This document shows, one piece after another, positions 57,417 to 63,307 of a stretch of 64,000 nucleotides of DNA (the stretch's first letter is position 1; each line of letters starts with the position of its first letter). The stretch spans positions 372,001 to 436,000 of the forward strand of contig NZ_VKKG01000001.1 in the NCBI RefSeq assembly GCF_007197885.1, written 5' to 3'. The notes beneath the pieces are model-generated. The model was not told the origin of the DNA. It searched no databases and was given only the letters and a program-made list of their open reading frames with translations. The translations under genes and the position numbers were made by a program. The DNA comes from Tessaracoccus rhinocerotis. Its GTDB lineage: Bacteria; Actinomycetota; Actinomycetes; Propionibacteriales; Propionibacteriaceae.

Positions 57417-58676
57417 ATGACCAACCTGACCATTGCCGGTGCCGCGCTCGCGGACGGCTCCCGCACCGACCTGCACATCGCCGACGGCCGCCTCGTGGCC
57501 GAGGCGCCGTCGGGCGCGGAGCGGATCGATGCCGACGGCCTGGTGGCGCTGCCCGGACTGGTGGACCTGCACACCCACCTGCGCGAGCCGGGGCGCGAGG
57601 ACACCGAGACGGTCGAGTCGGGTTCCCGCGCCGCCGCCCGGGGTGGCTTCACGTGCGTGCACGCCATGGCCAACACCCAGCCCGTCACCGACACCGCCGA
57701 GAAGGCCGAGCACGTGCTCGACCTCGGCAGAGCCGCGGGGCTGGTGCAGGTGGTGCCGGTGGGGGCGATCACCAAGGGCCTCGCAGGCACCGAGCTCGCC
57801 GAGCTGGGCCTGATGCACGACTCGCGGGCGGGCGTGAACGTCTTCTCCGACGACGGCGTGTGCGTGATGGACGCCGGCATCATGCGGCGCGCGTTCGAGT
57901 GGGTCAGCCGCTTCGGCGGCCTGCTCGCGCAGCACGCCCAGGACTCCAACCTCGCCGGGCCGGGCGCCTGCTGCCACGAGGGCGAGCTGTCGGGCCGGCT
58001 GGGGCTGCCGGGCTGGCCGCCCGTGGCGGAGTCCGTGATCATCGCGCGCGACGTGCAGCTCGCCGAGGCCACCGGCTCCCGACTGCACGTGTGCCACGTC
58101 TCCACCTCCGAGGGGGTCGAGGTGATCCGCTGGGCGAAGGCGCGCGGCATCGCCGTCACCGCCGAGGTCACCCCGCACCACCTGTTGCTCACGACGTCGG
58201 AGCTTGCCGGCTACGACACCACCTACAAGGTGAACCCGCCGCTTCGCACCGACGAGCACGTCGAGTCACTGCGCGCAGCCCTGGCGGACGGGACCATCGA
58301 CACCGTCGGCACGGACCACGCCCCCCACGCGGCCCACGACAAGGACCATGCGTTCGTCGACGCCCGCCCCGGCATGCTCGGGCTGGAGCAGGCCCTCGCG
58401 GTGGTCATGGAGACGATGGCCGAGCGGCTCGACTGGGCCGGGATCGCCGACCGAATGAGCATCGCACCCGCCCGCATCGGCGGCGTCGCGGGGCAGGGCC
58501 GGCCGCTGGCCGTCGGGGAGCCCGCCAACCTGGTCCTCGTGGACCCGGAGCGGCGCACGACGGTGGACCGTGCGGCCTCCGCCTCGCGCAGCCGCAACAA
58601 CCCGTACCACGGCCGCAGCCTCCCCGACCCCGTCGAGCTGACGCTGTTCCGCGGGAGGATCACGCACCGCCGTTGA
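57417..58676 (+). CDS. pyrC: Dihydroorotase
   Basis: Cyclises carbamoyl-aspartate to dihydroorotate. 419-residue class I (PyrC/PyrX-like) amidohydrolase: the metal motif is LVDLHTHLREPG (His52, His54), with zinc-ligand regions LAQHAQDSN and RLHVCHVST and the substrate-site stretch TDHAPHAAHDK. ATG at 57417, four bases after the pyrB stop. The usual carA, carB and pyrD genes do not follow; the next gene on this strand is the broken GH35 gene. Confidence 0.96.
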   Translation: MTNLTIAGAALADGSRTDLHIADGRLVAEAPSGAERIDADGLVALPGLVDLHTHLREPGREDTETVESGSRAAARGGFTCVHAMANTQPVTDTAEKAEHVLDLGRAAGLVQVVPVGAITKGLAGTELAELGLMHDSRAGVNVFSDDGVCVMDAGIMRRAFEWVSRFGGLLAQHAQDSNLAGPGACCHEGELSGRLGLPGWPPVAESVIIARDVQLAEATGSRLHVCHVSTSEGVEVIRWAKARGIAVTAEVTPHHLLLTTSELAGYDTTYKVNPPLRTDEHVESLRAALADGTIDTVGTDHAPHAAHDKDHAFVDARPGMLGLEQALAVVMETMAERLDWAGIADRMSIAPARIGGVAGQGRPLAVGEPANLVLVDPERRTTVDRAASASRSRNNPYHGRSLPDPVELTLFRGRITHRR

Positions 58677-58737: not shown

Positions 58738-58796
58738 GGGAGCCCGTTGCCAGACTCGCAGTCACAACTCTGCAATGACGCGAGGAAAGGGCTCCC
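58738..58796 (+). repeat. Inverted repeat in the GH35 leader
   Basis: GGGAGCCC at 58738-58745 is the exact complement of GGGCTCCC at 58789-58796. The second arm lies between the Shine-Dalgarno GAGGAAAGG and the GTG start of the GH35 gene. In RNA this could fold the translation start into a stem with a 43-nt loop. It may be chance. Confidence 0.35.
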
Positions 58797-58799
58797 AGC

Positions 58800-61700
58800 G
58801 TGCACAAGAAGCTCCTGTCCCAACTGGCGGTGGTCATCACCGTCCTGGCCATGGCCGTCGCCGGATTCGTCGCCTCCCCCACCGCCCGAGCGGTGGATCC
58901 GGAGGTCCATCAGGGCAACAAGGTCAACTTCCCCGGCAACGACGGTCAGCCGCACGAGGCCACGTGGGACAAGAACTCCTTCATGATCGACGGCGAACGC
59001 CTGCAGATCTGGTCGGGGGAACTCCACCACTGGCGCGTTCCGTCGGAGGACGGCTGGCGCGACGTGCTGCAGAAGCTCCGCGCATCTGGCTACAACGCCG
59101 TGTCCCTGTACTTCTTCTGGGGGATGCACCAGAGCGTCGAGGGCGGCGAGTTCGACTTCAGTGCGCCGCACAACATCGACAGGCTGCTCGAGATGGCGGC
59201 CGAGGAGGGCCTCTACGTCATCGCCCGCCCCGGCCCCTACGTCAACGCAGAGATCTCCATGGGTGGCCTGCCCGGGTTCATGGTGAACAAGAATGCGGGC
59301 TCGCTCCGATCCACCGACCCGAGCGTGTTGGAGCCGTCCAAGGCGTGGCTGAGTGCGTTCAACGACGTCGTCCGCGACCACCAGGTCACCGACGGCGGCG
59401 GCTCCGTGCTGCTCTACCAGATCGAGAACGAACTCCTCGGTGACCAGCAGTGGCGCAGGGACTTCCTGACGGCGCTGACCACCCACGTCGTGGACGACGG
59501 CATCACCGTGCCCGTGTTCCACAACGACTGGGGCATGGGCGGCCGGTTCAGCGACGTCGACACCTACGGCGCTGTGCGGAGTTCACCGACCCGGCCTTCA
59601 CGCGCCAATGGGGCGTGGGCAACTTCGGCAACGGCGTCACCGCCTTCAACTACTACATGATCATCGGCGGCACGAACTGGGGCTACTCCGGTGCCCCGGC
59701 CTCGGGCTTCACCTCCTACGACTACGGCGCGGCCCTCGATGAGGACCGCACCATCACCCCGAAGCTGGCCACGCAGAAGGAGCTCGGCTACTTCCAGGAC
59801 GCGCTGCCCGAACTCCTGACGATGGATCCGGTCGAGGCGCCCGCGGTCCAGGAGCACAACGGCGCGGCGGTCAAGGTTTACCAGCGCCAGGCCATCGAGG
59901 CACTCGACGACTCGGTCACCGGCAACGGTGCGCGCTACCTCGGCGCCCGCCTTGCCGACTCCAACAACACCACCGAGACCAGCTTCACAATCCCGCTGGT
60001 CCTCGACGAGGGTGAGGCCTCCCAGGGCCAGCAGTTCTCCGCGGATGACCGCGCCACCAGCCTGACCTTCGCGGGTGACTGGGAGCAGGTCGATGACGTC
60101 AGCGCCTACGAGGGCACCCTGACGCGGAGCGGCAACGCGGGTGACTCAGTGACGTTCACCTTCAACGGCACCGGCCTGGAGGTGATCGCGCCGCAGGGCA
60201 GCGACTACGGCATGGCCACCATCTCGTTGGATGGCGGCGCCACGCAGGAGTTCACGTCCTGGTACTACACGGACCAGAACGCCCCGACCCAGTCCGTGGT
60301 CCACACCGTCTCCGGACTGGCCCCCGGCCAGCACACGGTCACCATCACCGTCGCCGGCGAGGCCGCTCCCGAGAGCACCTCCGGCGGGACCACGGTGGCC
60401 ATCGACGCCCTGAACGTCCTGGGCGGCAGCAGCGACGGCGGCATCCTCATCAACGACGACGCCGACTTCATCACCTACAGCGACGGTCACTGGACCTACG
60501 CCACCGGGCAGGCCTGGACCGCGGGCGACATCAACGGTGACGAGACCTTCTCCAACCTGGCGGGAGCCTCGTTCGAGTTCGAGTTCGAAGGCGTCGGCTT
60601 CCAGCTGATCGCCGCCCACTCCAGCAACCACGGCCCCGGCCGCGTATTCATCAACGACGTCGAGGTGGGACTCACCGAGGAGGAGGTCACCAACAACGCC
60701 GTCCCGCAGCAGGTGATCTTCGAGGCCATGGACCTGGAGCCCGGAACGCACACGGTGCGCGTCGAGCGGACCGGTGACTTCTTCCCCGGCGCCGAGGACC
60801 CCCGCGGCGCCTTCCTCTCGATCGATGCGGTCAAGGTCTACCCCACCGCCCCGGTGGTCGAGGAGCCCGAGGTTCCCACCGACGCCATCTCATGGCCCCG
60901 CATCCCGCAGCAGGAAGGCACGAAGCTGCACCTGCACGGCCGCGACGCCATCGCGCTGGCCGCCGACTTCAACATCGGCGACCAGGGCGTCTACTACACC
61001 ACCTCCCAGCTGTTCGCCGAGCCGATCCTGACTGCCGACGGTCTGCTGCAGACCCTCGTCGGACACCCAGGGGACCCGGGAGAGACGGTGCTCGCCGTCG
61101 GCTCCGCCCACACCGTCGACGCGCCACAGGGCGTGACCACCACCTACGACGGGGAGAAAGGCCAACTGCGTCTCAACTACAGCCATGGGGCGCCGGTGGA
61201 CGTCACGATCACCGATGCCGGCCAGACCACCGTGCTGCGCCTGATGGATCGCGATCATGCCGCCGACGTGTGGCAGATCGAGGGCAAGAGCGCGGCCGGC
61301 ACCGGTAACGACTCGGTGATCGTGGACGGGGCGTACCTCGCTCGCACTGTGTCCTTCGAGGGCACCACCGCCCACATCACCGGTTCCATGGCCGCCGACG
61401 GTGAGCTCTCCGTCACCCTGCCCGCCGGCATCACGTCCTGGACGTGGAACGGCGCGACGCTCTCCGGCGTCGCCCCCGGACCGGAGACCGTTGCCGAGCC
61501 CGAACTCGACTGGGTGATGGCCACGGAGAACCCGGAATCCGCCATTGACTACGACGACTCCGAATGGACGCTCGCCAACGCCACCGATCCGCTGAACAGG
61601 TGGCAGGGCCCGGGCAGCAGCGGCGTCGTGCTGGACTCCAACCGGTACGGCTTCTTCGAGGGCTCGGTCTGGTACCGCGCCTCCTACAAGGCCGCAACCT

Positions 61701-63307
61701 CGAACCCGACGCTGACCTTCCGCGGCAACGGCGGCTCCGGAGTGCCGGGTCACGGCAAGAACCCCGCGTTCCTGCAGGTTTGGGTCAACGGCGTCTACGC
61801 CGGCGCCCGGTCAGCCTCCGGCGGCACCGTCACCGTCCCGGCCCCGGCCGGCACCGTCACCGCAGGAGAGGACGTCGTCGTGGCCGTGGTGGTGCACAAC
61901 CTCGGCCACAACCTGGACTGGGGCGACGACGGGCTCTCGCGCCAGAACCGTGGACTCTACGAAGCCAACCTGGCCGCCTCCGGCGCGGTGTCCTGGAAGA
62001 TCCACGGCGCCCAGTACACCGAGGCGGACGAGGCCGACCCGGTGCGCGGTCTCTACAACCGTGGTGGCCTCTACGGCGAGCGCGCCGGCTGGTACCTGCC
62101 CGGTTACCCGACCAGCGACTGGGCCTCCGCCTCCACCTTCGAGGCCGACGCCCCGGGGGTGGCCTGGTACCGCACCTCGGCGACGCTCGACGTACCCGAG
62201 GGCCAGGACACCGTCTGGCGCCTGGACATCGAGTCCAGCAGGTTCGATGCCGGCCGCACCGACGGCTCCCAGGTCAACATGTACGTCAACGGCTGGATGG
62301 TCGGCACCTACATCGGCGACATCGGCCCGCAGAACTCGTTCACCATCCCCGCCGGCTTCCTCAACAGCCACGGCGAGAACGAGATCGCGGTCTCCGTGGC
62401 CGCAAAGGCTGCAGGCATGGGACCGCAGGACATCCGCTTGGTCCAGGTGCACAGCACCACTGGAGCCCCTGCGGACTTCGATGCGACCGAGGCCCCTGAG
62501 TTCACCGAGCTCTCCGCAACGGTCTCCGTCAATGCCACCGAGGTTTCCGAAGGCGACGTCGTCACCGCCACTGGAGCGGCCGACGAACTGCCGGTGATCG
62601 CCGAGGGGGCCGACGTCGAGTTGCGCTACCTGTGGACCGCACCCGGTGGCGAGCCGGTCGTCGGCGAGGCATCGCGGGCACTGGTCGGCGCCGGCACTCA
62701 CACGGTGCGGGCCGTGCTCGTCGACGTCGTCAGCGGGCAGACGCTGGCCACGAGCGGGCCGGTCGAGGTGCTCGTCGGCGATGGCAGCACTGCGGAGCCG
62801 ACTGGGGAGCCGAACGAGGAGCCCACGGGCAGGCCCACGCAGGCCCCGACCAAGGTGCCGGGCCCTCGGCCCACCGCAACGGTCACGGCGGAGCCGGTGA
62901 ACCTCTACACCACGCCGGGCTTCCACCTGGTCAACGGCCGCTCCTGGTACACCGAGTGCGAGCCGTACTCGATCACCAAGCGCTGCACCACCGAGATCTG
63001 GGCCACCCAGGTCGCGTTCACCGACGGGCGGTTCGTGAAGTCCACCGGCTGGGTGTTCAACAACCTCACCTACCTGCCCTCCCCGCGTGCAGTGTGGGCG
63101 GACAACCCGCTCGGCAACACCGGGGCATGGACCGCGGAGGACGGCCGCAAGTGGCACACCGAGTGCGACACGGCGGTGACCGGCAAGAACGGTTGTCGTT
63201 CCTACACCCTGACCAGCTTCGTGAAGTCGACGCAGAACGCCGACGGCACGTGGAGCTACGCGGTGGTGCGGGACTTCGTGTTCAACAACATGGTGCTGTT
63301 CAGCTGA
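58800..63307 (+). pseudogene. Secreted GH35 beta-galactosidase, broken by an internal deletion and frameshift
   Basis: Would encode a secreted exo-beta-galactosidase. GTG at 58800 begins a signal peptide (LAVVITVLAMAVAGFVASPTARA). The barrel follows with LQIWSGELHHWRVPS, LYFFWGMHQ, RPGPYVNAEI and the acid/base motif LLYQIENELL. After VDTYG at about 59573 this frame turns into non-protein sequence and stops at 59660. The coding sequence resumes in another frame at TGT (CAEFTDPAFTRQ, about 59575) and continues to 63307 with FNYYMIIGGTNWGYSG and TSYDYGAALDEDR. In the family about 55 residues lie between these two points, including the EFQGG-type segment with the nucleophile Glu; they are absent. 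The remainder encodes two jelly-roll modules (about 60040-60850), the GH35 C-terminal domains, a PKD/Ig-like domain, a PT-rich linker and a cysteine module. It cannot be active as it stands. Confidence 0.85.
62900..63307 (+). other. Tandem cysteine-containing C-terminal module of the GH35 gene
   Basis: After a Thr/Pro/Glu-rich linker (about 62796-62900) the protein ends in two related units. The first has GRSWYTECEPYSITKRCTT and later GWVFNNLTYL; the second has GRKWHTECDTAVTGKNGCRS and later DFVFNNMVLF. Each contains R-x-W-[YH]-T-E-C, a second Cys about 9-11 residues on, and a closing FNN-[LM]. This suggests a disulphide in each unit and a wall- or glycan-binding role. I cannot name the family. 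Confidence 0.6.

Follow-up and report, generated by a model that had tools for sequence, protein, structure and literature searches.

What has become of the GH35 beta-galactosidase gene that adjoins pyrC in Tessaracoccus rhinocerotis, and could it still specify an enzyme? In the window (the whole 64,000-nucleotide stretch of contig NZ_VKKG01000001.1 that was analysed) this gene spans 58800-63307 on the + strand and is divided between two reading frames. Its upstream neighbour (57417..58676, +; placed from the ORF list and position) is presumably the dihydroorotase gene pyrC. The 5' fragment (58800..59660, +; delimited by frames, Pfam and motif) starts with GTG at 58800, passes through a stretch that resembles a signal peptide by eye into the GH35 barrel, and remains in register up to 59570, where it closes with ...VDTYG (FHNDWGMGGRFSDVDTYG); 29 out-of-frame residues follow before TGA at 59658-59660. 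The 3' fragment (59573..63307, +; frames, Pfam and alignment) resumes in the other frame with CAEFTDP... (CAEFTDPAFTRQ), and its translation shows no internal stop before the terminal one at 63307. The junction as assembled reads TACGGCGCTGTGCGG.

The division of the Pfam Glyco_hydro_35 profile corresponds to that of the frames. The 286-aa ORF at 58800-59660 matches profile positions 1-181 of 319 and the ORF at 59450-63307 matches positions 262-315; positions 182-261 are missing, so that the window copy lacks the full barrel expected of a functional GH35. (The intact orthologue of Tessaracoccus antarcticus covers 1-315 of 319). Beyond the barrel end the 3' ORF encodes BetaGal_dom2, dom3 and ABD2, all also present in T. 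antarcticus, with a CE2_N-like stretch (PF17996; 60134..60370, +; E 3.5e-10) in between, and finally a C-terminal domain of ~135 aa (62900..63304, +) with two cysteine-bearing halves, of which sequence searches find many genomic copies. The original prediction read the gene in these two frames, the first ending at VDTYG and the second resuming at CAEFTDP, and the ORFs, the Pfam split and the alignment with T. antarcticus all bear that reading out.

The T. antarcticus orthologue (genome G025, locus L048; NZ_REFW01000006.1) is uninterrupted over 1621 codons from stop to stop, and provides the measure of what is missing. Its residues 13-273 align to 58788-59570 of the window in the first frame and residues 333-1621 to 59573-63304 in the other frame; the 59 residues in between (177 nt) correspond to 2 nt in the window, and these (59571..59572, +) constitute the deletion junction in the alignment. 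The corresponding segment, nucleophile motif included, is 177 nt long in nine and 180 nt in three of the 12 homologues in which it can be measured. (The other four of the 16 sequences examined are the window itself, G083, in which the segment is absent, and L052 and L053, two Arcanobacterium MAGs from outside the family. The latter two have the nucleophile motif at 291 nt from the acid/base motif, compared with 273 nt in the 12 measured homologues, and their segment may be longer). By this comparison the window has lost 175 or 178 nt; either number leaves a remainder of 1 on division by three and shifts the frame. Aligning the partial proteins with homologues, as had been proposed, thus yields a size somewhat above the ~165 bp originally estimated; that the loss would not be a multiple of three was correctly foreseen.

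The missing segment is the one that matters for catalysis. The motif xExQGG (ITEAQGG or IAE[ST]QGG) is found in 14 of the 16 sequences and is missing from the window and from G083, in agreement with the predicted out-of-frame loss of the GH35 nucleophile region. Its Glu aligns with residue 298 (Glu) of the Aspergillus niger beta-galactosidase A structure 5ifp, a position occupied by Gln in 5ift, presumably an inactivated mutant, and in the further entries for that sequence; on the 1tg7/1xc6 chain the counterpart is residue 259 (positions counted by hand). E298 is the nucleophile of the A. niger enzyme, and its equivalent in Penicillium numbering is E299, with which residue 259 of the chain agrees when an inferred offset of 40 residues is added. 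The 5' ORF retains the acid/base motif YQIENE (YQxENE), whose Glu has that role. Judged by catalytic residues, therefore, the window copy has the acid/base Glu of a GH35 enzyme and is without the nucleophile Glu. The barrel aligns over ~350 residues with those of GH35 enzymes of fungal-like domain order (A. niger LacA, 5ifp; T. reesei, 3og2; Penicillium, 1tg7), and the ENE acid/base is alike. The differences from these enzymes, compared here by their barrels, are that the nucleophile segment is gone and the frame shifted, and that a CE2_N-like stretch and a genus-specific C-terminal domain are present. Relocation of the segment by rearrangement can be set aside: a search of the T. rhinocerotis genome with the lost segment gives no match at E up to 10, and the same query recovers the segment in 7/7 other gene-bearing genomes tried.

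A short direct repeat (codons for YG and for GYGxC) had been put forward as the source of the deletion. In its simple form, slippage on this repeat does not survive comparison with T. antarcticus. No other of the 12 measured relatives has YG a short distance ahead of the Cys; in T. antarcticus the two copies lie 168 nt apart, so that a slip from one to the other would preserve the frame and leave a different junction. A direct repeat peculiar to the parental lineage of the window allele is conceivable. A 9-nt sequence spanning the junction, ACGGCGCTG (59566-59574), recurs 97 nt upstream (59469-59477); the probability of such an upstream copy by chance is ~0.04, calculated after the repeat had been noticed, and this makes a junction templated from it a weak candidate. 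Hairpin-driven loss finds no support in the assembled junction region (all that the fold covers), which folds no better than its shuffles (z -0.68). The comparison with relatives points instead to a single deletion without sizeable end repeats, which would take out the nucleophile segment of the barrel and shift the frame.

Does the living strain carry this deletion, or does it have an intact gene from which a segment was dropped in library preparation or assembly? Such an artefact is unlikely, though several considerations speak for it. The assembly is a draft of 49 contigs, and the remainder of the gene is free of decay, as an assembly fault would also leave it. There is a precedent in the GH33 frame shift of Cutibacterium acnes 266, which is put down to sequencing or assembly in the excerpted text of PMC6160142. 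On the other hand, loss of 175 nt is atypical of base-call error. (A repeat scan of the assembled junction alone cannot exclude a collapsed repeat; the boundaries in relatives were measured instead). In the 12 relatives, exact repeats shared between the two boundaries (60 nt on each side) reach no more than 6-9 nt, and collapse of a k-mer-sized repeat is therefore not indicated. Generally poor assembly is also discounted: T. rhinocerotis has both pepN and rpoB in a single frame, and, among 13 genomes, pepN is in one frame in 13/13 and rpoB in 12/13 (no match in G013), a rough comparison in that the GH35 gene is longer than these controls and not essential. The short boundary repeats, the intact pepN and rpoB, the absence of the lost segment from every other contig and the unexceptional fold (no special hairpin in the junction as assembled) would together favour a real deletion; the uncorroborated junction probably records one, rather than an assembly fault.

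The condition of the remainder bears on age. As had been noted, no other lesion is evident in the 4.5-kb gene, and the 3' ORF is without internal stop; a remainder so open and undecayed implies that the lesion is recent, if not a fault of assembly. Over 868 post-lesion codons common to nine sequences, no stop is found in the window, whose GC3 after the lesion (0.918) is within the range of its relatives (0.848-0.952). Its amino acid difference to the outgroup G001 is 0.482, compared with 0.498-0.528 for six nearer relatives. The window's terminal branch at codon positions 1+2 (0.147) is the longest of the nearer group (others 0.065-0.143) and shorter than those of G001 and G009 (0.183-0.184), about as would be expected for a lineage without a close sister. 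Against five relatives, dN/dS of the window ranges over 0.19-0.38 ahead of the lesion and 0.36-0.58 beyond it; six equally distant pairs of relatives (G025, G013 or L049 against G061 or G031) give 0.17-0.29 and 0.38-0.58, respectively. By these figures the post-lesion part shows no excess, and any excess in the part before it is slight. There is no clear signal of relaxed selection, in a test made weak by the far-diverged synonymous sites (interspecies dS ~0.4-1.2). Approximately 2.8% of single changes would create a stop. That 4.5 kb contain no second lesion limits neutral divergence since the loss to less than ~2.4% to 0.5% (simple Poisson bound, assuming 0 to 0.1 indels per substitution). 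If real, the lesion is probably recent.

The same gene is found damaged elsewhere in the family. Among 198 family genomes, 13 have a close orthologue (at least 58% identity to the catalytic part of the T. antarcticus protein; the next by score, G139, has 37%), and L049 brings the set to 14. Five of these 14 are lesioned as assembled, each at a different place. Relative to T. antarcticus numbering, G011 (T. bendigoensis DSM 12906; L034) changes frame near residue 160, G031 (L029) near 369-375 and once more within its C-terminal part, and G087 (L071) between 584 and 739; G083 (L069) matches only residues 48-264 and nothing beyond, and the window has its 175/178-nt deletion after residue 273. (The small frame changes of G011 and G031 are possibly sequencing errors). 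No frame change appears in the sequenced extent of the other nine; G013 ends at a contig edge. G011, G031 and G087 thus have the same gene as the window, frame-disrupted at other positions. The pyrC-linked intact orthologues (G025, G013 and L049, of Tessaracoccus/Arachnia) share the window's neighbourhood: RNNPYHG, the C-terminal motif of pyrC, stands just upstream of the GH35 gene in these as well as in G011 and G031, and pepN is upstream on the same contig in the window, G025, G013, G031, G061 and G011. The T. antarcticus gene, 68% identical to the window before the lesion and 58% after it, is one open frame with the 177-nt segment present; the window has neither. The window copy thus combines intact orthologues at the same place with an inactivating lesion, as expected of a pseudogene. 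The gene is accessory in the family and appears to have been broken several times at different places. The T. rhinocerotis genome also has a second GH35 gene (G000:C23:289342-290319; L066), which consists of a single open frame of 593 codons with 35% identity to the T. antarcticus query and no obvious signal peptide by eye.

All this makes it quite probable that the locus once specified a secreted multidomain GH35 beta-galactosidase and was recently inactivated by one deletion of 175 (or 178) nt. Translation from the natural start would yield 286 aa, a secreted half barrel in which the acid/base Glu is retained and from which the nucleophile, the remaining barrel, the accessory domains and the C-terminal domain are lost. 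With the nucleophile and the rest of the barrel missing, galactosidase activity should be absent, and enzyme activity has most likely been lost. Could translation of both halves restore it? The 5' fragment ends in a stop that shares bases with an ATG of the 3' frame (ATGA, 59657..59660, +, read directly), the right frame for reinitiation and a split protein. That the locus operates in this manner is barely credible: the ATG is the Met codon of NYYMIIGG, which G025, G031 and G011, among other relatives, have too; the 3' product would have no signal peptide; and a split protein would regain none of the missing residues, the nucleophile among them.

Another argument for function comes from C. acnes, in which the short form appears to be the normal state. 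According to the excerpted text of PMC6160142, the GH35 of C. acnes is always short where the gene is present, aligns to residues 41-265 of 1XC6, and is proposed to be a minimal enzyme; the active site of this short protein (AEE73032) is described there as conserved. As far as that published description goes, it and G083 resemble the window in consisting of a secreted N-terminal half barrel, and the 286-aa ORF (from one genome of its species) is of the kind seen in C. acnes-type short GH35. The break points are also near one another (residue 264 of T. antarcticus in G083, of genus g14, and 273 in the window), with stop-to-stop frames of 297 and 293 codons, respectively, and dN/dS of the G083 half is 0.07-0.09 against G088 and G087. 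It is nonetheless very unlikely that the half-barrel product is a retained functional form of this sort. The nucleophile motif is missing from the window and, by motif search, from G083; residue 299 of 1xc6 lies outside 41-265, so that by its published range the short C. acnes form should miss the nucleophile as well, and probably does. The existence of a normal short form, which the original prediction had named as a finding that would count against it, is to that extent on record, but leaves the window copy no more functional. Long use of the half barrel only should also have left the 3' part decayed. That part is still there, while in G083 nothing past residue 264 matches, and it is more diverged than the 5' part to about the same degree as among equally distant relatives. 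The low dN/dS of G083 is explained equally well by recent truncation (G088 and G087, compared with each other, give 0.09) and would fit either constraint or a recent cut. More speculative still, and correspondingly less probable, is the proposition that two Propionibacteriaceae lineages independently cut GH35 to a nucleophile-free secreted half barrel of nearly equal length and kept it for a non-hydrolytic role such as galactoside binding. The window locus is probably a case of ordinary pseudogenisation. (A literature search on Tessaracoccus beta-galactosidase, GH35 pseudogenes or frameshifts and C. acnes GH35 turned up nothing on the T. rhinocerotis locus among the matches listed).

The last 135 residues of the 3' fragment (62900-63304) are part of a much larger set. 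The domain is matched at ~65 further places in the same genome (67 matches once the gene's own and that of one GH35 paralogue are subtracted), for a total of ~66 copies, and occurs in 15 of 198 family genomes at E 1e-8 (copies counted up to 21 per genome), all of one genus; copies are also found in L002-L008, L048, L049 and L054-L060. Its two Cys-bearing halves are marked by the motifs GRxWxTxC...C and GWVFNN. In 7/7 loci checked it follows a Pro/Ser/Glu/Thr-rich linker and ends no more than 3 residues from the stop, and in some ORFs or loci (C47 of the same genome; L056) there are two or three tandem copies. The predicted structure is mostly beta (mean pLDDT 83, pTM 0.63). The window copy has no match in Pfam or NCBIfam at E up to 1; weak Pfam matches among 14 domain members involve five families, each in 1/14. 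Two PDB sequence matches are weak (E 0.27 and 0.42), and a fold search of the PDB gives no match at E 0.001 or better, its top entries, SSB proteins, being meaningless as fold relatives (TM ~0.2).

The ends of orthologous proteins suggest what this domain might do. In four genomes without it (G001, G009, G091 and G090), the GH35 orthologues (L032, L033, L072 and L073, respectively) have LPxTGR or LPxTGA right before the stop, so the domain may be another way of keeping proteins attached to the cell surface. These ends are followed by neither a membrane segment nor a charged tail; an LPXTG protein of P. acnes without membrane segment and charged tail is noted in the excerpted text of PMC5527093. 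Sortase is present in 39/39 genomes and does not separate those with the domain from those without. Three further nearby ORFs (in L069 of G083, L071 of G087, and L073) also finish in LPxTGR/LPxTGA. The domain can be thought of, at present, as probably an uncharacterised cell-surface attachment domain, and is of greater interest than the deletion in the GH35 gene that carries it.

By itself the locus matters little: one further accessory glycosidase has been lost through deletion. Its implications are for how similar genes are read. The proposal of a minimal enzyme in C. acnes, as set out in the excerpted text of PMC6160142, should be considered with the position of the nucleophile in mind. More generally, five of 14 orthologues are lesioned as assembled, and in Propionibacteriaceae a GH35 annotation should therefore not be read as galactosidase activity until it is clear that the nucleophile is present.
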